From IMG/VR virus record IMGVR_UViG_3300037049_000148, positions 1-61,365 of that record: a stretch of DNA of 61,365 nt; one strand, written 5' to 3'. This DNA comes from a virus. Shown here in pieces: positions 4,485 to 56,889 of the stretch. Position 1 is the stretch's first letter; every line of letters begins with the position of its first letter. Below the pieces are notes generated by a model, which worked only from the letters and a program-made list of their open reading frames with translations, made no database searches and was not told the origin of the DNA. The position numbers were made by a program, and so were the translations under genes.

Positions 4485-4900
4485 AGCATAACATTGTGAG
4501 AATAGAGATCGAGACCGTCAAGCCAGGGACGGTTGTGCGCGGCAAGATGATCAACGTCTTTTTGAAGCCTCCGCCAAGATATTGTTGGTTCCCACGTCTG
4601 CCGGTTCGCACCGTTTACGATACCGGGCTTGTGCGTTTTGATGGAGGCGGCCACTTCCTCCGCTTCGATGCCCTTGGGCTCGAAGCGGACGGCATCACTG
4701 CCGGCGATGTGGAGTTCCTGATGACCACCGTTGGCGCCGATATGCTGTTCAGGAACGATCTGCAAATGTTGGTGGGGCGGGCAGAGAGCAGCCCGGAGGT
4801 GTTCAGGGATCGTCCGGTGTGGGTCGGAATGGCTCTTTATGAAGTCGAGCGAGACGCATCGGTAAAGTTTACCAAGTGGCTGGATCTGGAAGCAATATAG
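4481..4900 (+). CDS. Hypothetical phage protein
   Basis: 139 residues, starting in an ATGA overlap with the preceding stop and with AAGGAG upstream. Beta-rich, no signal peptide or TM segment. No family recognised. Last gene of the GC-richer replication run before base composition drops at about 4900. Confidence 0.75.
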   Translation: MKHNIVRIEIETVKPGTVVRGKMINVFLKPPPRYCWFPRLPVRTVYDTGLVRFDGGGHFLRFDALGLEADGITAGDVEFLMTTVGADMLFRNDLQMLVGRAESSPEVFRDRPVWVGMALYEVERDASVKFTKWLDLEAI

Positions 4901-4922
4901 CTTTTCGATACAAATAATATAC

Positions 4923-4951
4923 TTGACGCACCAGAGCGTTTGTGCTAGAAT
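4923..4951 (+). promoter_or_regulatory. Sigma-70-type promoter for the transposase fragment, probably leaderless
   Basis: TTGACG (4923-4928), 17-nt spacer, TAGAAT (4946-4951). The ATG at 4958 lies six bases after the -10, so the transcript should start at or next to the start codon. Confidence 0.7.
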
Positions 4952-4970
4952 GTTGGTATGAAAACCAACA
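4951..4970. repeat. 7-bp perfect inverted repeat enclosing the start codon
   Basis: TGTTGGT-ATGAAA-ACCAACA: the ATG sits in the loop. It overlaps the -10 edge and the predicted start point, so it could be an operator or an RNA hairpin masking translation. Confidence 0.6.
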
Positions 4971-5440
4971 GTGGCTTGCCCAGTACCTTGCAAGGCGCGA
5001 TAATATACTTCTCCAATCAGAAAGAAGCCATTGATTTTGTCGCTAGTTTGCGCTGGCCCAAGGGAGTCACATGCCCGAATTGTGAAGGTAAAGAACAATA
5101 CTTTTTGGAGACTCGCAAGGTGTGGAAGTGCAAGAAATGTGGAAAACAATTCTCTGTCAAAGTTGGTACTATCTTCGAGGACTCCCCCGTCAAGTTGAAT
5201 AAATGGCTTGCCGCAATTTGGATGATTGCCAATGCCAAGAATGGCGTTTCGTCTTATGAGATTGCCCGTTCCTTGGGTGTCACTCAAAAATCTGCTTGGT
5301 TTATGCTTCATCGAATTCGATTAGCTATGCAGATTGGTTCTTTTTCCAACCTTTCTGTACAGGTAGAAGTTGATGAGACCTATAACAAGTTGACTGGAAA
5401 GAATTCTAGCTCGGTTTCATTGGGGAGCGTCGCGGTATAA
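4958..5440 (+). pseudogene. IS1595-type transposase, N-terminal fragment
   Basis: 160 residues, about half of the usual length of roughly 300. It has a zinc ribbon (CPNC...CKKC, about 39-65), then an HTH-like region ending in SAWFMLHRIRLAM, then VEVDETY, which is the first catalytic Asp of the DDE nuclease. The family sequence stops there and is replaced by a 17-residue unrelated tail before TAA. The remaining DDE domain is absent, so it cannot transpose. DNA binding could persist. A C-terminal piece of the same family lies at 40607-40831. AT-rich compared with upstream genes. Confidence 0.8.
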
Positions 5441-34245: not shown

Positions 34246-34274
34246 ATTGTAGCGGCACTGTTCCAGTCTGTCAA
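34246..34274 (-). promoter_or_regulatory. Late-operon promoter with CTGGAAYAGT spacer element
   Basis: Minus strand TTGACA (34274-34269), 17-nt spacer containing ACTGGAACAGT, TACAAT (34251-34246). Drives holin, terminase and downstream late genes. The leader is about 105 nt. Confidence 0.8.
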
Positions 34275-39499: not shown

Positions 39500-39733
39500 C
39501 TATATCAAATCTTCTGGTTTGTAGACCGCGGGATGTTTGATCTTCTTGCGTCTTTTATTTTCTTCTTTCATAGTGTAATTCTCCAGTTTTTTCCATTCAA
39601 GAGTTGATTCAAAGTCTTCAACTCTTAATCCTGCAATGGGGTGCTTAGATTTTATAATATCTTTGTTTGCTTTGAATAAAAGATGTACAAACTCACCACA
39701 ATAATATTTAGGGTAACTATATACCTGACGCAT
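39500..39733 (-). CDS. Small hypothetical protein
   Basis: 77 residues, basic C-terminal half (KEENKRRKKIKHPAVYKPEDL). ATG at 39733 with a weak AAGAAA upstream. The amino-acid composition looks natural and the AT-rich codon use fits the island. No family recognised. Divergent from the protease gene. Confidence 0.45.
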   Translation of the reverse strand: MRQVYSYPKYYCGEFVHLLFKANKDIIKSKHPIAGLRVEDFESTLEWKKLENYTMKEENKRRKKIKHPAVYKPEDLI

Positions 39734-39766
39734 GAAAGCAATTTCTTCGCATAGCGGGGGGGTAAA

Positions 39767-40597
39767 ATGACATGTAAAAATCTGTGCCTTGAAAACGTCA
39801 TTATGGCTAAAAATAATTTGTGTAATTTAATCAATGAATTTATTGATACAATATTGCACATGACAAATAAATTTCGGGTTGGAGATATTGTTTATGTATC
39901 AAGATCGAGGGCGAGACTTGATATAAATGCTCCATCAGCATTATATAGGTCTGAGATTGTTGAAATCAGAAATCGTTCTGCTAAGATCAAGCTTCTTGAA
40001 GATGTTTCTAGTTTTATACCAACATCTGCATTAGTAAAACGGCTGGGGATATTGGTTTTGAAAATCGGTGATTTTGAGAGTGAAGATAGTCTTCTTAATC
40101 CTCTAAGGGAATCTTTACGCCATTATTTTAGTTTATTGCTCTCAGAGGGAGAAGTCTTATATTGGGATGTTAGAAGTTTAGATGAACTAAGCCGATTTTG
40201 GAAGACGCAAAATAATCATAATGCTATAACTCATGTCATACTTGTTGGTCACGGAAAATCTAATTCGATAAAATTTGGAGATACATGGAAATTATCTAAA
40301 GAGATCAATGATATTTTGAATTTGGATGGAGTGTTTCCAAAACAATTTATATCTTTGTGCTGTGAAACTGGGATCGCTAACTTTGGCAAGATGTTTTCTC
40401 AACTTCCTGTTTGCGAGTCATTGATAGCTCCTTTTCAAAGTATACATGGATCAATAGCATCTCAATTCTGTCAAACTTATTTCAACTATTTATTGTTGCA
40501 AGGTAAAACTTCTGGAGTTTCTTTCAAAAAAGCACGAGATGCCACACCAAACGCTACAAGTTTTCGCAGATGGAAAAACGGAAAATTGATAAGTTAA
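39767..40597 (+). CDS. CHAT/caspase-like cysteine protease with SH3-like N-terminal domain
   Basis: 276 residues. The C-terminal half has a strand ending in VILVGHGKSNSIKFGD (His162) and ISLCCETGIANFGKMF (Cys198-199, ETG), then LIAPFQSIHGSIASQF and the helical FNYLLLQGKTSGVSFKKA. This is the His-Cys dyad order of CHAT/metacaspase-like peptidases (HG...ACETG). Residues 36-80 resemble a small KOW/SH3-like barrel (FRVGDIVYVSRSRA). CHAT proteases act in bacterial abortive defence. Here it sits in an AT-rich phage island with no obvious sensor. ATG 39767 follows GGGGGG. Starts at 39803 or 39860 are possible. Confidence 0.7.
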   Translation: MTCKNLCLENVIMAKNNLCNLINEFIDTILHMTNKFRVGDIVYVSRSRARLDINAPSALYRSEIVEIRNRSAKIKLLEDVSSFIPTSALVKRLGILVLKIGDFESEDSLLNPLRESLRHYFSLLLSEGEVLYWDVRSLDELSRFWKTQNNHNAITHVILVGHGKSNSIKFGDTWKLSKEINDILNLDGVFPKQFISLCCETGIANFGKMFSQLPVCESLIAPFQSIHGSIASQFCQTYFNYLLLQGKTSGVSFKKARDATPNATSFRRWKNGKLIS

Positions 40598-40606
40598 AAT
40601 TGGGAG

Positions 40607-40831
40607 ATGAAATTAAAACTCACGGGTTTTCTAGTTGCCAATGTTGCTATGCCAATAATTGTTGGGGGATTTATGAATAGCCTTCTTACTTCTCAACATC
40701 TTGACCGCTATCTTGCAGAATTTGATTATCGTTATAATACTCGTGGCGAGAAAGACGGAATAAGAATGATAGAAGCAATCAAGAAATCGAATGGTAAAAG
40801 ATTGCAATATAAGGAATTGATTGCCGGATAG
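40607..40831 (+). pseudogene. IS1595-type transposase, C-terminal fragment
   Basis: 74 residues. From residue 24 the sequence NSLLTSQHLDRYLAEFDYRYNTR...GKRLQYKELI matches the conserved end of IS1595-family transposases (LDRYLxEFxFRYNxR and a terminal YKELI). The preceding 23 residues do not. The N-terminal counterpart is at 4958-5440, about 35 kb away. Together they lack most of the DDE domain. Confidence 0.75.
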
Positions 40832-40858
40832 CATCGGAAAGTAGCATTAAAAGAAGTG

Positions 40859-40930
40859 TGCCGCAGATGAGATTTGAACTCACATCCATAAACTTAGTAG
40901 GTTTCCGCTCCTCCCTTGAGCTACTGCGGC
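40859..40930 (-). tRNA. tRNA with ACU anticodon (identity uncertain)
   Basis: Minus strand folds as a canonical cloverleaf: acceptor GCCGCAG/CTGCGGC, D stem GCTC/GAGC, anticodon stem GAAAC/GTTTA (one mismatch at 27-43), loop CTACTAA, 5-nt variable region, T arm GTGAG-TTCAAAT-CTCAT. Anticodon ACU would read AGU (Ser), but there is no long variable arm, so the charging identity is doubtful. The CCA is not fully encoded (ACAC follows). Confidence 0.75.
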
Positions 40931-40960
40931 ACACTCATATTCTAGCACTAGGATAAAATT

Positions 40961-41128
40961 ATGGCAGAAACAAAGAAGAAAGTAAAAAAGAAGGTTGTCA
41001 AGAAAAGAAGTAGCAAATACAATAAAAAGATTTCTCTTTATGGCATGGATGAAAAAGATGTTTTGAAAGAGTTATTGAAATCGCCCCCTATTCCAAGCGG
41101 AGAGATCAAGGATAAAAACAAGGAATAA
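40961..41128 (+). CDS. Small lysine-rich protein
   Basis: 55 residues between the two tRNA-like genes. The first 23 residues are dominated by Lys and Arg (AETKKKVKKKVVKKRSSKY), then an acidic helix and a Pro-rich tail. Could bind nucleic acid. ATG preceded by AGGATAAAATT. No family. Confidence 0.5.
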   Translation: MAETKKKVKKKVVKKRSSKYNKKISLYGMDEKDVLKELLKSPPIPSGEIKDKNKE

Positions 41129-41132
41129 ATCT

Positions 41133-41270
41133 ATGAAAAGAATTGGTAGAGGAGTTGCGAGAAATGTGGCAAAAGCCAGCGTCAAAAACGATAATTGTAT
41201 GGTATTGATTGTTGTTATGATTTCGCTCTTATTATTGTTTGTTTGTATAGTAAATGCACTAGCAAGATAA
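41133..41270 (+). CDS. Small single-TM protein
   Basis: 45 residues: basic amphipathic N-terminus and a strong TM helix (CMVLIVVMISLLLLFVCIV). Starts 4 nt after the 40961 stop, with AAGGA (inside the previous gene end) as ribosome site. The pair may form a small operon. Confidence 0.55.
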   Translation: MKRIGRGVARNVAKASVKNDNCMVLIVVMISLLLLFVCIVNALAR

Positions 41271-41322
41271 TATTAAGCGAGTATCATCTAATAATAGAAT
41301 AAGACTTATCTTACAAGTATGC

Positions 41323-41406
41323 CGATGAAAGCCCGATTTGAACCATTGAAGGTTTTTCACCCTCAACAGATGCTCAGTCTATCCCATTAAGTCCATTCCT
41401 CTCATC
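41323..41406 (-). tRNA. tRNA-Leu-like gene (GAG), degenerate T arm
   Basis: Minus strand: acceptor GATGAGA/TTTCATC (one G-U), anticodon stem ATAGA/TCTGT with loop CTGAGCA (anticodon GAG), and a long class-II variable arm TGAGGG-N7-CCTTCA typical of tRNA-Leu. The TTCAAAT T loop is present but its stem pairs poorly, and the D arm is irregular. Functional tRNA, tRNA-like element or decaying gene. Confidence 0.45.
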
Positions 41407-41443
41407 TTTCCGATTTTATTTTAACAAGAAAGTTAATAACGAT

Positions 41444-41953
41444 TTAATAGCAAGTCCATTCCGCAGTATTTGCGGTTGCCATGTTGTCTTGATTATTTTC
41501 ATATCTTTCTATTATTGCGATTACTTTTATGTAACAGTTCTTGTTTAATAAGCCTTGATAGAGTTCGGAAAAATCCTCTCTTGTGAAATAAATATACCAC
41601 CTTTCCAAATATCCTCCGCTAGGTGTTATTGTTACACAGAAATATTTTGGTTCTATACTAGCGTCATATCCCCAATTGTAGTAATTGCATAATTCGCCTG
41701 TACCAGTCAATGCAAATTTTTTGTAAAGATTGTTTGGCATATTATACTGAACTTCTTTGGCGGTTAAGGTTACACCCTCTTTTTGCATCCATTCGTGCAA
41801 TCCGGAATCGGGATTGGCAGTTGCCAGTTCATTAATTTGTTGCTGGGCGGTTTGTAAAAATTCTATTTGAGATGGGGTTGGCTGTATTGGTGAACACCCC
41901 GACATAAGAATGATAACTATTATCCCGAAGAGTTTAACAAGGAAAGTCTTCAT
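41444..41953 (-). CDS. Lipoprotein, possible superinfection-exclusion or conversion protein
   Basis: 169 residues. N-terminus KTFLVKLFGIIVIILMSGCS with lipobox MSGC and Cys20 as the lipidated residue. The mature part has three or four further Cys and a beta-rich C-terminal half. AT-rich. Phage lipoproteins often block receptor use or DNA entry during lysogeny. Inferred from type and context only. Confidence 0.75.
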   Translation of the reverse strand: MKTFLVKLFGIIVIILMSGCSPIQPTPSQIEFLQTAQQQINELATANPDSGLHEWMQKEGVTLTAKEVQYNMPNNLYKKFALTGTGELCNYYNWGYDASIEPKYFCVTITPSGGYLERWYIYFTREDFSELYQGLLNKNCYIKVIAIIERYENNQDNMATANTAEWTCY

Positions 41954-42046
41954 TTTGATTCTCCTCTTGAATTATTCTAATCATTATAGTTTAAAAACCA
42001 TAAAAGGAAAAGGAAATATGATTCAACAATTAAATAACAAGGTAAA

Positions 42047-42802
42047 ATGGGGTCTATGGGAAAACTTAAGTTTACATGGACTCTTTTTTGGCAGGGCATT
42101 ATTGCTTTTTGTCTTGTGTTATTGGGGGAGTTGGTAAACGATATGCTTTTATCTCCTTCTGGCTACTGTGGGAGTAGCATAGTTCTTTGTCGAGTTGTTC
42201 AAGTAATCGTATTTATAATAATATTACTTGTTGCCGGTGTTTTGGCTTATATAATCTGGAAGTTAATGTCGAAGATTGCTAAACAATTTTCAAAATTTAA
42301 ATATTCATTTCAAAGAAAAAAAGAGGTGGATTTTTCCCCATATATTTATCGAGATGGAAATATTATTTATATGAAAATTAGTTGCCCTCAAAAATCATTT
42401 TTATATGCTGTTTGCAGTTATTCAGTTAAATATCTGAAGTCGAAAAGAGAAGATCATGAAATTAAAACAAAATCTGACTTGATTAACAAAATGATTTCTG
42501 ATGCAATGATTGGAGCAACCGGGAAGCAGTCGTCATGGTTTGATTATGATTCGATAAAAATTAAGAAAAATACCTTTGGGAGATTACATCTATTTGAAAT
42601 TGATCCAGACAAAGAAATATTTTGTTTATATAGAGATTCAGGAATGCCAAAAAGATTTCGAAACGATGAACTTTTTCCAAATTTAGAAGAAATTTCTTTT
42701 CAGCGTGGAGAATATGACTTTGAAATAACAATATCCGCGAGAGATTTTTTAGGTAGAGTTTTTATGCAACGATTTCCTTATCATATAATATATGAAGGAT
42801 AA
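42047..42802 (+). CDS. Two-TM membrane protein with beta-rich C-terminal domain
   Basis: 251 residues. TM helices at about 10-30 and 50-72, basic stop-transfer (KIAKQFSKFKYSFQRKKEV), then a soluble domain. Same overall plan as the proteins at 7571 and 42819. An overlapping ORF (42018-42137, 39 residues) in another frame has the better ribosome site AAGGAAATATG, so the true start is uncertain. AT-rich cargo, function unknown. Confidence 0.6.
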   Translation: MGSMGKLKFTWTLFWQGIIAFCLVLLGELVNDMLLSPSGYCGSSIVLCRVVQVIVFIIILLVAGVLAYIIWKLMSKIAKQFSKFKYSFQRKKEVDFSPYIYRDGNIIYMKISCPQKSFLYAVCSYSVKYLKSKREDHEIKTKSDLINKMISDAMIGATGKQSSWFDYDSIKIKKNTFGRLHLFEIDPDKEIFCLYRDSGMPKRFRNDELFPNLEEISFQRGEYDFEITISARDFLGRVFMQRFPYHIIYEG

Positions 42803-42818
42803 AAATGACAGCCCATTT

Positions 42819-43565
42819 CTACACAAAAAAATTAGCCCATGCGTCAAGTATATAGTTACCATATTTAGATATATCGTTGCCAGAAATTGTCCCAGAAACA
42901 CCAATAATCAATTCGTAATCGGCTTTCCATATATCGAAGTCGCCAATGCCTTTTGTAGAAGTTTCGTCATAAGGAAAAAACTCTCTGCTGTAAAGTCCTG
43001 TTGCAATATAGAATTTTGTAATATGTCCTATAAAACCGTCCATGCCAGCATAGCTTGCTAACAAAATATCTATATCCTTGTTTGGAGGAATTCTTGTTAT
43101 CTCGCTCAAAAATGGGCGCTCCTCTGTTGGCAAATCTTTTAGATATACTGGCCCAATAGCAGTAATTCTTATCGGTTGAATGATCAGATTTTCTAAATAA
43201 TCATTGTCAGACTTGTTTGTTATCCTTAAACTGATACATCCTGAATTATGTCTAATATCACCATCAAGAATTTCCTCCACCCTGATTTTAGAAATGAGAT
43301 TTTTTGACCACAGTCTAATTGCGACGCTACCAAAACCAATTAAAGGAATTGTGAAAACAAATGCTATCAATATCATATTAACGATAGAACAAATTGCGAA
43401 TTGAGGAGGGCAATGAACAATATTCATGTATCCCCCAAGAGTTGCTATGATGGTTGCGAGAATCCCTATTAATAAACTTCCCACCACAATCACCAAATAG
43501 GATTGGAATATTCTTTTCTCCATGCCATCTATTTTACTCCCCATGCTATACAAAAAATGGGCCAT
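42819..43565 (-). CDS. Two-TM membrane protein with immunoglobulin-like beta domain
   Basis: About 248 residues (start at 43565, 43541 or 43523). TM helices at about 22-47 and 60-85, then beta-rich (CISLRITNKSDNDYLENLIIQPI). Convergent with the 42047 gene. Resembles 2TM-beta proteins. No catalytic residues visible. AT-rich. 43566-43690 upstream of it holds no recognisable gene. Confidence 0.65.
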   Translation of the reverse strand: MAHFLYSMGSKIDGMEKRIFQSYLVIVVGSLLIGILATIIATLGGYMNIVHCPPQFAICSIVNMILIAFVFTIPLIGFGSVAIRLWSKNLISKIRVEEILDGDIRHNSGCISLRITNKSDNDYLENLIIQPIRITAIGPVYLKDLPTEERPFLSEITRIPPNKDIDILLASYAGMDGFIGHITKFYIATGLYSREFFPYDETSTKGIGDFDIWKADYELIIGVSGTISGNDISKYGNYILDAWANFFV

Positions 43566-43696
43566 ACGTCAATTACACGATACTTTATATTTTGCGCATC
43601 GTGCAGGTGCCATTCGGCGCTATTCGGCCAATTTTCGACCGCCCACCGTGTTTGCCGACGGCGCGCTGTTGGACAATATTTGAACCCCCAACTCTA

Positions 43697-43725
43697 TTGA
43701 CAGGCTGGAATAGTTGCGTTACATT
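43697..43725 (+). promoter_or_regulatory. Promoter with CTGGAATAGTT spacer element
   Basis: TTGACA (43697-43702), 17-nt spacer containing CTGGAATAGTT, TACATT (43720-43725). Drives the 43765-44661 gene cluster. Confidence 0.85.
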
Positions 43726-43764: not shown

Positions 43765-44076
43765 ATGACACTTCCTGACATCGGAAACACCTTCGACGCC
43801 GTCATCATCCAGCCCTTGGAAAAGTTTCCGGTAGTCGGAGAAATCGTGAAGGGCAAGATCCTGGACCAGGTGGGCAGGTTTCAATTGCGGAACAGCGTGA
43901 TTCAAAAGCAACCGCGCTTCATGATCTCGGCGGAATTTGAAGCCGCGTTATGGGATCACATTCGAGTCATGCCGGCGCAATCGCTGCTGCGTCCACCGCT
44001 GGATACCAATGTATGGGAACAGCATCGCAGAACGAAAGCCGGCACACACTGGTACTACCGGAGACCATATGCTTGA
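43765..44076 (+). CDS. Hypothetical protein, first gene of macro-domain operon
   Basis: 103 residues, ATG with AAAGGA upstream, about 35 nt after the promoter start. Mixed alpha/beta (FDAVIIQPLEKFPVVGEIVKGKIL), basic C-terminus with HWYYRRPY. A degenerate dispersed palindrome covers codons 3-8. No family. Confidence 0.65.
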   Translation: MTLPDIGNTFDAVIIQPLEKFPVVGEIVKGKILDQVGRFQLRNSVIQKQPRFMISAEFEAALWDHIRVMPAQSLLRPPLDTNVWEQHRRTKAGTHWYYRRPYA

Positions 44077-44238: not shown

Positions 44239-44661
44239 ATGACCCATATCATCAATTCAGATCTCATTGGCGTCGAGCGCGGCGTTATCTGCCACCAAGT
44301 CAATTGCCGCAAAGTGGCCGGGGCAGGTGTGGCGCTCCAGATCAGGCGCAGATGGCCGCAGTGGTACGCAGAGTTTCAAAGGCGTTCGCCCAAACTTGGG
44401 CAAGTCGGATATCACCAGGTCGATGAGAACCTAACCATCGCTGACTTGTACGCTCAGGATGGCTTTGGCCGGGATAGGCAGTACACCGATTACGAAGCCT
44501 TGAGAGCATGCCTTCAGGAAGTCAGCCGCTATGCCGGCAAGAAACCTGTGTATCTTCCCTTTGGCATGAGCTCGGGATTGGCGGGCGGCGACTGGAACGA
44601 AGTGTTGCGCATGATCGAAACGGAATTACCGGAAGCGATCATTGTCCGGAAGACCAGATGA
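44239..44661 (+). CDS. Macro-domain protein (ADP-ribose binding)
   Basis: 140 residues. GVICHQVNCRKVAGAGVALQIRRRWP is the macro-domain entry (strand, N/Q, GAGVAxxI), followed by YAQDGFG and later VYLPFGMSSGLAGGDW, which fits the phosphate-binding loop of small macro domains. Expected to bind or hydrolyse ADP-ribose or its esters, perhaps countering ADP-ribosylation-based defence or processing RtcB/tRNA-repair by-products. 2-nt gap to the previous gene. Confidence 0.82.
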   Translation: MTHIINSDLIGVERGVICHQVNCRKVAGAGVALQIRRRWPQWYAEFQRRSPKLGQVGYHQVDENLTIADLYAQDGFGRDRQYTDYEALRACLQEVSRYAGKKPVYLPFGMSSGLAGGDWNEVLRMIETELPEAIIVRKTR

Positions 44662-44672
44662 CTGGCGTCACC

Positions 44673-44701
44673 TTGACAAACTGGAATAGTTAAGTTACAT
44701 T
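44673..44701 (+). promoter_or_regulatory. Promoter of the large noncoding RNA, with CTGGAATAGTT spacer element
   Basis: TTGACA (44673-44678), 17-nt spacer containing CTGGAATAGTT, TACATT (44696-44701). Nearly identical to the promoter at 43697. An 8-bp perfect inverted repeat GTTACATT-TGT-AATGTAAC (44694-44712) overlaps the -10 and start point. Confidence 0.85.
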
Positions 44702-44712
44702 TGTAATGTAAC
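44694..44712. repeat. Inverted repeat over the ncRNA start point
   Basis: GTTACATT-TGT-AATGTAAC. Operator-like placement. Absent at the sister promoter 43697. Confidence 0.7.
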
Positions 44713-45189
44713 ACTTGAACCTTAACAACCGACGACCAATAGTAGAGACATGGATTGAAAGCAATTTCAATCCATGTCTCTGCCGAGGGCAGACATTTCT
44801 TCTCCTTTCTGATGCAGCCTGCGGGCTGCTCGATCCGCTGTGATGTCGGGTTGCAGTGGGTCAGGCGCAGTGGGTGCGCCACACGGAACTCCAGGTGGGC
44901 GACCACCTGGAGGACTCCGTCCGGATTAGGTATCAAACTTAAGTTGATAAGTACGTGGCACGACCTGTAGCAACGCGCACGCATTCCTGTACTAATTGTG
45001 ACCGAGTGACATAAGATGACGCATGCGTGTGGACGTGGACGGCGATATATCGCCGGGCACTGGAGGGACGCCTTCAGTGCCGAATACGCAAATCAAGCAG
45101 AGTACGTGAAAAGTCGCCTCTCATTCGAGACCCTACCCCTTGTGCGACGCTCTGCTCGCGATGGGAGCCGCAAATGGCTCCCATCAAAG
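44713..45189 (+). ncRNA. Ornate large noncoding RNA (ROOL/GOLLD-like candidate)
   Basis: About 480 nt with no credible ORF but almost continuous base pairing. Helices: 17-bp stem with GCAA loop (44744-44781), GCAGCC-TGCG-GGCTGC (44814-44829), GATCCGCTG with CAGTGGGTC (44832-44862), GGCGCA/TGCGCC (44864-44880), ACGGA/TCCGT enclosing TCCAGGTGG-GCGA-CCACCTGGA (44883-44920), TATCAA/TTGATA (44931-44949), CGCACGCAT/ATGCGTGTG (44976-45031), GGCGATATATCGCC (45041-45054), GGCACTG/CAGTGCC (45056-45081), nested GCAGAG/CTCTGC and GTCGC/GCGAC (45097-45155), and a 10-bp stem (45160-45185). Own promoter. Class assignment is inferred from size, style and phage context. Confidence 0.75.
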
Positions 45190-45205
45190 TTTCTGACAAC
45201 GGAAA
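45190..45205. repeat. Dispersed palindrome, one mismatch, overlapping a ribosome site
   Basis: TTTCTG-ACAA-CGGAAA. Its right arm merges with the GGAAAGG ribosome site of the 45212 gene. Confidence 0.65.
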
Positions 45206-45211
45206 GGCATT

Positions 45212-45451
45212 ATGGATCTGACCAAAGCGCGCGATGAAGAACATCTTGCCACGGTCATCACGTTGACCATTGGGGATGGCGAGATGGAAAAGATGCTGTT
45301 CACGGAAACGGAAAGGAAAGCCATCGCGGAAGGACTGGCCTCCGACAAGATCTCCACCAACCTGCATGCCTTGAGAGTGATCGCGATGAAGGCGGAGAAA
45401 ATGGCGAAGGCCATGCGAAGGCTGGCAAGGCTGCCAGGCAGACTTCATTGA
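45212..45451 (+). CDS. Small helical protein
   Basis: 79 residues, starting right after the ncRNA and a dispersed palindrome. Acidic N-terminal half, basic helical C-terminus (ALRVIAMKAEKMAKAMRRLARL). No family. Could be a partner of the adjacent RNA, by position only. Confidence 0.6.
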   Translation: MDLTKARDEEHLATVITLTIGDGEMEKMLFTETERKAIAEGLASDKISTNLHALRVIAMKAEKMAKAMRRLARLPGRLH

Positions 45452-45888: not shown

Positions 45889-45952
45889 CAGGGCGGCTTA
45901 GACGCCTGCCCTGCTAAACGGGCCGCGAAGAACGGCTCCAGCTTGGACCCGT
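45889..45952 (+). ncRNA. Structured 5' leader of the endolysin gene
   Basis: Hairpin CAGGGC-GGC...GCC-T-GCCCTG (45889-45913), then a three-way junction: ACGGG (45918-45922) with CCCGT (45948-45952) enclosing GCCG-N7-CGGC and TCCA-GCT-TGGA. The 150-nt gap 45887-46040 contains no ORF. May delay or control endolysin translation. Confidence 0.5.
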
Positions 45953-55507: not shown

Positions 55508-55682
55508 CGTGGCAAATGGCAGGGATTGGGTGGCAGCCATCAAGCTCCAGGCGTTGGGCTTCCCGGACATCCCGCATCAGATCAAGGTCATTCGCCTGTT
55601 GAACATGCGGCGCAGATTGCCGCACATCCGGCGGGTCCGGTCCCTGGAGCGGTCGGCGCGGCGTGCTCGCCGTTGTAATTAA
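55467..55682 (+). CDS. Small basic protein
   Basis: 71 residues, ribosome site overlapping a dispersed palindrome. C-terminus very Arg-rich (NMRRRLPHIRRVRSLERSARRARR), so probably nucleic-acid binding. Directly upstream of RtcB. Confidence 0.6.
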   Translation: MSAMKQLYDNLSIDVANGRDWVAAIKLQALGFPDIPHQIKVIRLLNMRRRLPHIRRVRSLERSARRARRCN

Positions 55683-55701
55683 TTTCCATTATGGAGGTAG
55701 C

Positions 55702-56889
55702 ATGAAACAGATCGCCGATAAGATTTTTCAGTTTGGGGAACATGATGACCAAACCATCGAACAGATCAACATGATCGCCAGTGATGAGCGCGTATATCGC
55801 GCGGTCCTGGCTGCTGACGGACACTTGGGATATTCGATGCCGATCGGCGGAGTGGCCGCCTACATGGGTGTGGTTTCGCCGTCGGGCGTGGGATATGACA
55901 TCGGTTGCGGAAATCTCGCAGTTCGTACCACCTTCAAAACCAACAATGTGGGTTATTGGAGCGACCTGGTATACGAGATTGCCCGCACCATTTCGTTTGG
56001 TATTGGACAGGTCAACAAGGAAATTGTCGAAAGCGCAATGGTATACAGCCACGATGCCTGGAATATTCCTGCGGTCAAGGAACTGCTTCCCATCGCTCAA
56101 GGCCAGCTTGGAACCGTCGGCGCCGGCAATCACTTCGTTGACATCCTGAAGGACGAACACGACTGGCTATGGGTGGGTGTTCACTTCGGTTCGCGCGGTT
56201 TTGGACATCACATTGCCCAGCACTACATCAAGGCCGGCGGTGGGAAAGACGGGATCATGCAGGCTCCCACGCTCTTGGATGTCAATTCGGAACTCGGCAA
56301 GGAATATATTACCGCCATGCAATTGGCGGGCTTATATGCCATGGCCGGGCGCACCTGGGTGGTGGAGCGTGTTTTGGAGATCATGGGCGCTCAAGCCATA
56401 GAGCGCGTTCACAATCATCACAACTTCGCCTGGAAGGAGAGACACGAAGGCCGGGACTTCTGGGTCATCCGCAAGGGCGCCACGCCGGCTTTCCCTGGAC
56501 AGCGAGGATTTATCGGCGGGTCCATGGGCGACATCTCCGCAATTGTGGAAGGCGTTGACACGGAGGCTTCCAGAACTGCGCTGTATTCCACGGTTCACGG
56601 AGCAGGGCGCCTCATGTCCCGCACCCAGGCTGCTGGCAAGAAGAAATGGGTCGGCGGGAAAATGGTTCGCACGGGAAAAGGTCAGATCTCCCGCGAAATG
56701 ATGAATGACATGCTGCTGGCGAAGAAAGTGATCCTGTATGGCGGCGACACAGATGAAGCCCCGCAGGTATATCGCCCGCTGGATAACGTCCTGAAAGCAC
56801 AGGGCGAGACCATCCGCATCCTCCATACTCTGGAGCCCATGGCAGTGCTGATGGCTCCGGCAGATGTGGAGGATCCCTTCAAGGACTAG
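55702..56889 (+). CDS. rtcB: RtcB-type RNA ligase
   Basis: 395 residues from ATG 55702 (GGAGG upstream). GYDIGCGN carries the metal Cys, GAGNHF and FGSRGFGHH supply His residues, and the C-terminal STVHGAGRLMSR is the guanylylated-His region of RtcB. Joins 2',3'-cyclic phosphate or 3'-phosphate RNA ends to 5'-OH. In a phage with tRNA genes this suggests repair of tRNAs cut by host anticodon nucleases. Confidence 0.93.
   Translation: MKQIADKIFQFGEHDDQTIEQINMIASDERVYRAVLAADGHLGYSMPIGGVAAYMGVVSPSGVGYDIGCGNLAVRTTFKTNNVGYWSDLVYEIARTISFGIGQVNKEIVESAMVYSHDAWNIPAVKELLPIAQGQLGTVGAGNHFVDILKDEHDWLWVGVHFGSRGFGHHIAQHYIKAGGGKDGIMQAPTLLDVNSELGKEYITAMQLAGLYAMAGRTWVVERVLEIMGAQAIERVHNHHNFAWKERHEGRDFWVIRKGATPAFPGQRGFIGGSMGDISAIVEGVDTEASRTALYSTVHGAGRLMSRTQAAGKKKWVGGKMVRTGKGQISREMMNDMLLAKKVILYGGDTDEAPQVYRPLDNVLKAQGETIRILHTLEPMAVLMAPADVEDPFKD

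Follow-up and report, generated by a model that had tools for sequence, protein, structure and literature searches.

A large structured RNA with its own promoter, conserved in fold between two related phages

The phage contig studied here, a viral record of 61,365 bases that was analysed over its whole length (the window), carries on its plus strand, from 44705 to about 45189, what sequence comparison indicates is almost certainly a real, conserved structured RNA and not a gene. Its approximate limits were drawn from fold energy, from a related phage and from covariance models. An earlier note on this DNA had proposed a promoter-driven, ornate noncoding RNA of about 480 nt at this place, and this has been borne out by the strength of the fold (z −8.8) and by covariation with one independent phage. 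As to its role, the reading that we favour, albeit at somewhat less than even confidence, is that a multi-domain phage RNA, about 480 nt long and transcribed from a promoter of its own, would itself be the product in its folded form and would serve as a scaffold or in a ribonucleoprotein.

The phage, its relative and the gene neighbourhood

The phage contig encodes a DnaB-like helicase, a Sak4-like protein, a terminase, a portal, a major head protein, an endolysin and an RtcB-type ligase. The latter RNA ligase (55663-56889; phrog_1075, E 3e-75) is about 50% identical to its closest phage relatives. A search with the endolysin yielded one related phage, IMG/VR 3300014839_001411 (69.7 kb), which is co-linear with most of the window, with a DNA identity of about 66-81% in the longer aligned pieces. 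Both phages have the gene order 140-aa macro-domain open reading frame (ORF), promoter, structured RNA (at about 3955-4381 in the relative) and 79-aa ORF. The upstream 140-aa ORF (44239-44661, plus strand), 61% identical in the relative, matches phrog_335, which is annotated as phosphatase, and is presumably a macro-domain protein. The downstream 79-aa ORF (45212-45451, plus strand), also 61% identical in the relative, starts 27 nt beyond H12, the final hairpin of the RNA. Its product belongs to no known family or fold, has no match among solved structures and contains no recognisable RNA-binding family; the predicted model, with two strands and two helices, is weak (pLDDT 68).

The RNA comparison covers two independent sequences, those of the window phage and of the one relative. 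The terminase of the window recurs at 100% identity on two other contigs, of 27.7 and 36.3 kb, one of which stops inside the RNA. Only short chance matches were obtained with blastn of the RNA against phages and plasmids. Pattern scans of IMG/VR and of bacterial and archaeal genomes gave, besides the known relative, matches only in unrelated sequence, and 0 matches were found when ten of these were tested with covariance model R2. Such scans can miss homologues: one of them omitted the known relative though its sequence fits the pattern. The covariance models of the RNA had no match in records with related macro-domain or recombinase genes, and a terminase search for more phage relatives returned the same lineage only. 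As found in these searches, homologues of the RNA appear to be confined to a small phage lineage.

Several other features of the two genomes were recorded. The stretch from about 39500 to 43690 of the window is AT-rich (GC as low as 0.32 vs about 0.54), carries tRNA-Ser(ACT), is missing in the relative and looks like a foreign insert. The relative has, adjoining the 3' side of its 79-aa ORF, a 134-nt tRNA gene (4637-4770; Rfam tRNA, 45 bits) that is missing from the window. About 60 extra nt are apparently located in the variable region of this tRNA, which ARAGORN reads as Ser with a 6-nt intron and of which the anticodon arm reads AUC by eye. Another strong fold (4775-4990; z −3.1) lies between this tRNA and the endolysin gene of the relative. 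The 26-nt sequence AACGGGCCGCGAAGAACGGCTCCAGC (45917-45943 in the window, 4910-4935 in the relative) is the same in both phages amid diverged DNA and precedes the endolysin start by about 100 nt in the window and about 60 nt in the relative; blastn of phage records with this sequence gave 0 matches.

Promoter

The RNA is preceded on the plus strand by TTGACA-N17-TACATT at 44673-44701 (TTGACA at 44673-44678, TACATT at 44696-44701), from the position of which the RNA is expected to start at about 44708. The relative carries TTGACA-N17-TACAGT at the orthologous place with the same spacing, and because of this conservation the near-consensus promoter seen in the earlier note is taken to be real. 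A 27-nt promoter type, TTGACANNCTGGAANAGNTNNGTTACA, occurs in the window in three copies with at most three mismatches, against 0.00 expected: at 34274 (minus strand) upstream of the structural operon, at 43697 (plus strand) before the ORF at 43765, and at 44673 (plus strand) before the RNA. All three are present at orthologous places in the relative and probably form a single regulatory class, to which the structural operon belongs. Since that operon has the same promoter type, the RNA would probably be made together with the structural genes.

Folding, coding capacity and covariation

The minimum free energy of the RNA (44705-45189) is −213.6 kcal/mol, compared to −159.2 ± 6.2 kcal/mol for shuffled sequences (z −8.84), and none of 100 shuffles was as low. 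Among 254 plus-strand segments of 480 nt of the phage, the energy relative to GC is lowest at the RNA locus. This locus likewise ranked first in the same scan of the genome of the relative, the RNA of which has a z of −7.28.

The absence of a credible ORF, claimed from the start, was confirmed: stops occur in nearly every frame of the RNA, and neither frame-specific protein conservation nor codon-position bias was found. Substitutions between window and relative fall evenly over the three codon positions in the RNA (53/57/63); both flanking genes have a third-position excess. A protein-coding reading is ruled out by the broken frames and this even distribution. What is conserved between the homologues is base pairs, not codons.

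Covariance models were built from the window alone, and both recovered the relative: R1, for the 3' domain, at E 1.2e-17, and R3, for the 5' domain, at E 7.2e-12. In the 3' domain, with 44 pairs, 100% of the cells are paired and 12 pairs have changed on both sides. The 5' domain has 98.4% of its cells paired, with all pairs but one kept and seven two-sided changes. Slid controls, in which the partner was moved by 1-3 columns, gave 35-50% paired cells in the 3' domain and 33-46% in the 5' domain. When the hand-aligned helix H7 is pooled with both domains, 32 pairs have changed, of which 31 remain able to pair and 21 differ on both sides. A binomial test of 31/32 against 6/16 gives 1e-12, a rough figure, the alignment having been fitted to the structure. 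There are limits to this bias: a plain MAFFT alignment also leaves H1 (42 nt) and H12 (26 nt) free of gaps, and RNAalifold, run on a plain MAFFT alignment with a structure of its own, gives 21 pairs with two-sided changes. The helices are thus kept by compensatory changes in the one relative, as the homologue alignment that had been suggested as a check was to reveal. On the plus strand, 21 cells are G-U and one is A-C. As one-sided changes make G-U rather than A-C, the plus strand is the functional one, and an RNA from the minus strand is ruled out by the same counts. Of the aligned RNA bases, 231/404 are identical in the two phages.

Anatomy of the RNA

The conserved helices are H1, H3, H7, H8, H9, H11 and H12, all on the plus strand. 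H1 (44742-44783; 44742-44760 paired with 44765-44783) is the stem with a GCAA loop of which 17 bp had been noted; it is present and conserved, at a length of 19 bp including one G-U pair. Its 42 nt are ungapped in both phages, with 18 of the 19 pairs kept and four two-sided changes. The loop is AUCG in the relative, so GNRA loops, which had been put forward as a trait shared with other large RNAs, are not conserved. An alternative 6-bp hairpin, H1b (44779-44793; TCTGCC/GGCAGA, TCTGCT/AGCAGA in the relative), excludes the base of H1 and resembles a weak terminator. It is followed by the pyrimidine tract TTTCTTCTCCTTT (44796-44808), which resembles an anti-Shine-Dalgarno sequence, and by H3 (44832-44862), a 13-bp stem that covaries and has the conserved apex TGAYRTCGGGTTG.

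The hairpins at 44864-44920 are present in the window and missing from the relative. They comprise GGCGCA/TGCGCC and ACGGA/TCCGT (44883-44887/44916-44920), the latter enclosing a stem with a GCGA loop (44889-44898/44903-44912) that is 10 bp long and not 9 bp as first described. Judged from this alignment, the most ornate part of the RNA is not conserved.

The 3' part starts with an invariant block, ACGACCTGTAGCA (44960-44972), followed by the 9-bp helix H7, in which CGCACGCAT (44976-44984) pairs with ATGCGTGTG (45023-45031) and which has two two-sided changes in the relative. H8 (45040-45055) is a perfect 16-nt palindrome, CGGCGA-TATA-TCGCCG; its stem is slightly different in the relative, where the loop is GTAC, and both loops, UAUA and GUAC, are self-complementary. 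H9 (45056-45081) is an 11-bp stem with four two-sided changes, and H11 (45096-45156) is a compound stem of AGCAGAGT/GCTCTGCT and GTCGC/GCGAC with a TCTC/GAGA apex. The final 10-bp hairpin, H12 (45160-45185; GATGGGAGCC/GGCTCCCATC), spans 26 nt in both phages and has five two-sided changes. No U-rich terminator was found in the sequence after H12. Conservation of sequence is seen in the blocks TTTCTTCTCCTTT, TGAYRTCGGGTTG, ACGACCTGTAGCA, GTGGACGT and GCAGAGT...AAAGTCGC...GCGAC-N-CTCTGCTC. Beyond H12, TTTCTG can pair with CGGAAA to form H13 (45190-45207), which covers the Shine-Dalgarno sequence GGAAAGG of the 79-aa gene. The full-length folds predict that this sequence is paired in both phages: the window uses H13 for it, the relative the pyrimidine tract.

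Comparison with known RNA families

ROOL and GOLLD are phage RNAs that often lie near tRNA islands and form cages, and the level of GOLLD rises during lysis (PMC12286853). The ole gene frequently adjoins oapA (PMC11332333). The RNA of the window has no match at gathering thresholds among the 4227 families of Rfam 15, and the covariance models of ROOL, GOLLD and OLE gave no match in the RNA of either phage at E values up to 5. Matches to mir-725, mir-490, C0299, Ysr251 and the CPEB3 ribozyme were rejected as far below gathering scores and driven by plain long hairpins. The kinship with ROOL or GOLLD that the earlier note had raised as a possibility is therefore unsupported. The linkage to tRNAs that goes with it is weak: in the window the nearest tRNA lies 3.8 kb upstream of the RNA and on the opposite strand, although in the relative one is located about 250 nt downstream. 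Neither phage has a tRNA island, the window having one tRNA and the relative two isolated ones.

Like ROOL, the present RNA is phage-encoded, several hundred nt long and rich in helices, and would work as a folded RNA, the function being known for neither; unlike ROOL, it has no tRNA island nearby, and its conserved blocks and helix order are its own. With GOLLD it has in common a phage origin and a conserved 3' domain next to a more variable 5' and middle part, represented here by an insert of 57 nt in one of the phages. An increase at lysis is seen for GOLLD, and the RNA described here has a promoter type in common with the structural operon, as read from its sequence alone. Its length is about 480 nt, whereas many GOLLD members exceed 800 nt, and it contains no tRNA. 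The pair of OLE and OapA offers a structured RNA of similar size beside the gene of a possible partner protein, but OLE is encoded on bacterial chromosomes and OapA resides in the membrane; in the phage no gene for an oapA-type membrane protein is adjacent, and the 79-aa protein shows no relation to a known family. Resemblance to ROOL, GOLLD and OLE in size and setting does not make the RNA a member of these classes. That it belongs, as a divergent representative, to ROOL, GOLLD, OLE or another Rfam family would agree with its phage location, size and many hairpins, but is most improbable in view of the 4227 families without a match, the low-scoring hits being to miRNA, sRNA and ribozyme models.

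Possible roles of the RNA

In the reading that we favour, the RNA would be transcribed from its own promoter and fold on the plus strand, and the folded RNA itself would act in the infected cell as a scaffold or ribonucleoprotein. Its likely partner would be the 79-aa protein encoded just downstream on the same transcript, an arrangement like that of OLE RNA and OapA, and a dimer or higher assembly could perhaps form via the palindromic H8 hairpin. The self-complementarity of the H8 loop is compatible with an intermolecular contact, although it is statistically not strong: a 4-nt loop is self-complementary by chance in 1 of 16 cases, and nothing else was seen that points to assembly. That the RNA represents a class assembling both with itself through H8 and with the co-transcribed 79-aa protein is, as a combined proposal, rather unlikely. 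A multi-domain fold with low sequence conservation is more scaffold-like than an aptamer core. Counting against a scaffold are the comparison of just two sequences, the lack of a terminator after H12, by which the transcript may enter the 79-aa gene, the Shine-Dalgarno sequence predicted to be paired in both phages, as in a leader, and a protein with neither an RNA-binding family nor a strong predicted model.

Several of these points fit a possible, if less probable, role of the RNA as a leader: it would form the 5' untranslated region of the gene for the 79-aa protein, perhaps also of the endolysin region beyond, and would control translation. The Shine-Dalgarno sequence GAAAGG would be masked by H13 or, from a distance of about 400 nt upstream, by the pyrimidine tract, until it is freed by a refolding of the RNA or by a bound protein. 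The short distance from H12 to the ORF with no terminator between, the high pairing probability of the Shine-Dalgarno sequence in the full-length folds of both phages, the 13/13 identity of the pyrimidine tract and the mutual exclusion of H1 and H1b all agree with such a leader. However, different masking partners are predicted for the two phages, a pyrimidine tract is able to pair with any Shine-Dalgarno sequence, and long-range pairs are not reliably predicted by minimum-energy folding of an RNA this long. Long leaders, such as those of ribosomal-protein genes and riboswitch expression platforms, also end just before a Shine-Dalgarno sequence predicted to be paired, but the present RNA is much longer, is conserved mainly in structure and has no recognised aptamer-like core; 480 nt and at least seven conserved helices far exceed the usual need of known leaders. 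Our preference for a scaffold or ribonucleoprotein over a leader comes from the large size of the fold, its multiple domains and the conservation of its shape instead of its sequence, and from the different ways in which the Shine-Dalgarno sequence is predicted to be masked in the two phages.

The exact conservation of the pyrimidine tract, largely outside the covarying helices, has also been considered as a sign of action in trans, in which the exposed tract UUCUUCUCCUUU would pair with host or phage mRNAs at their ribosome-binding sites, or mimic the tail of 16S rRNA, and so shift translation. Its complement, AGGAGAA, precedes the endolysin start by a short distance in each phage, but is not frequent close before ATG in either genome. 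As the predicted folds engage the tract, in part locally in the window and with the Shine-Dalgarno sequence in the relative, and as so elaborate a fold is needless for a simple antisense RNA, we regard such a role as quite improbable.

Significance

To our knowledge, few large structured phage RNAs have been described, and the two best known form RNA cages, the purpose of which is not known. The RNA presented here adds another, not related to these, for which a promoter and a neighbouring gene are defined and most helices are fixed by compensatory changes. It would offer a compact system in which the function of such an RNA can be asked by deletion, and it shows that the ornate RNAs of phages extend beyond the catalogued families.
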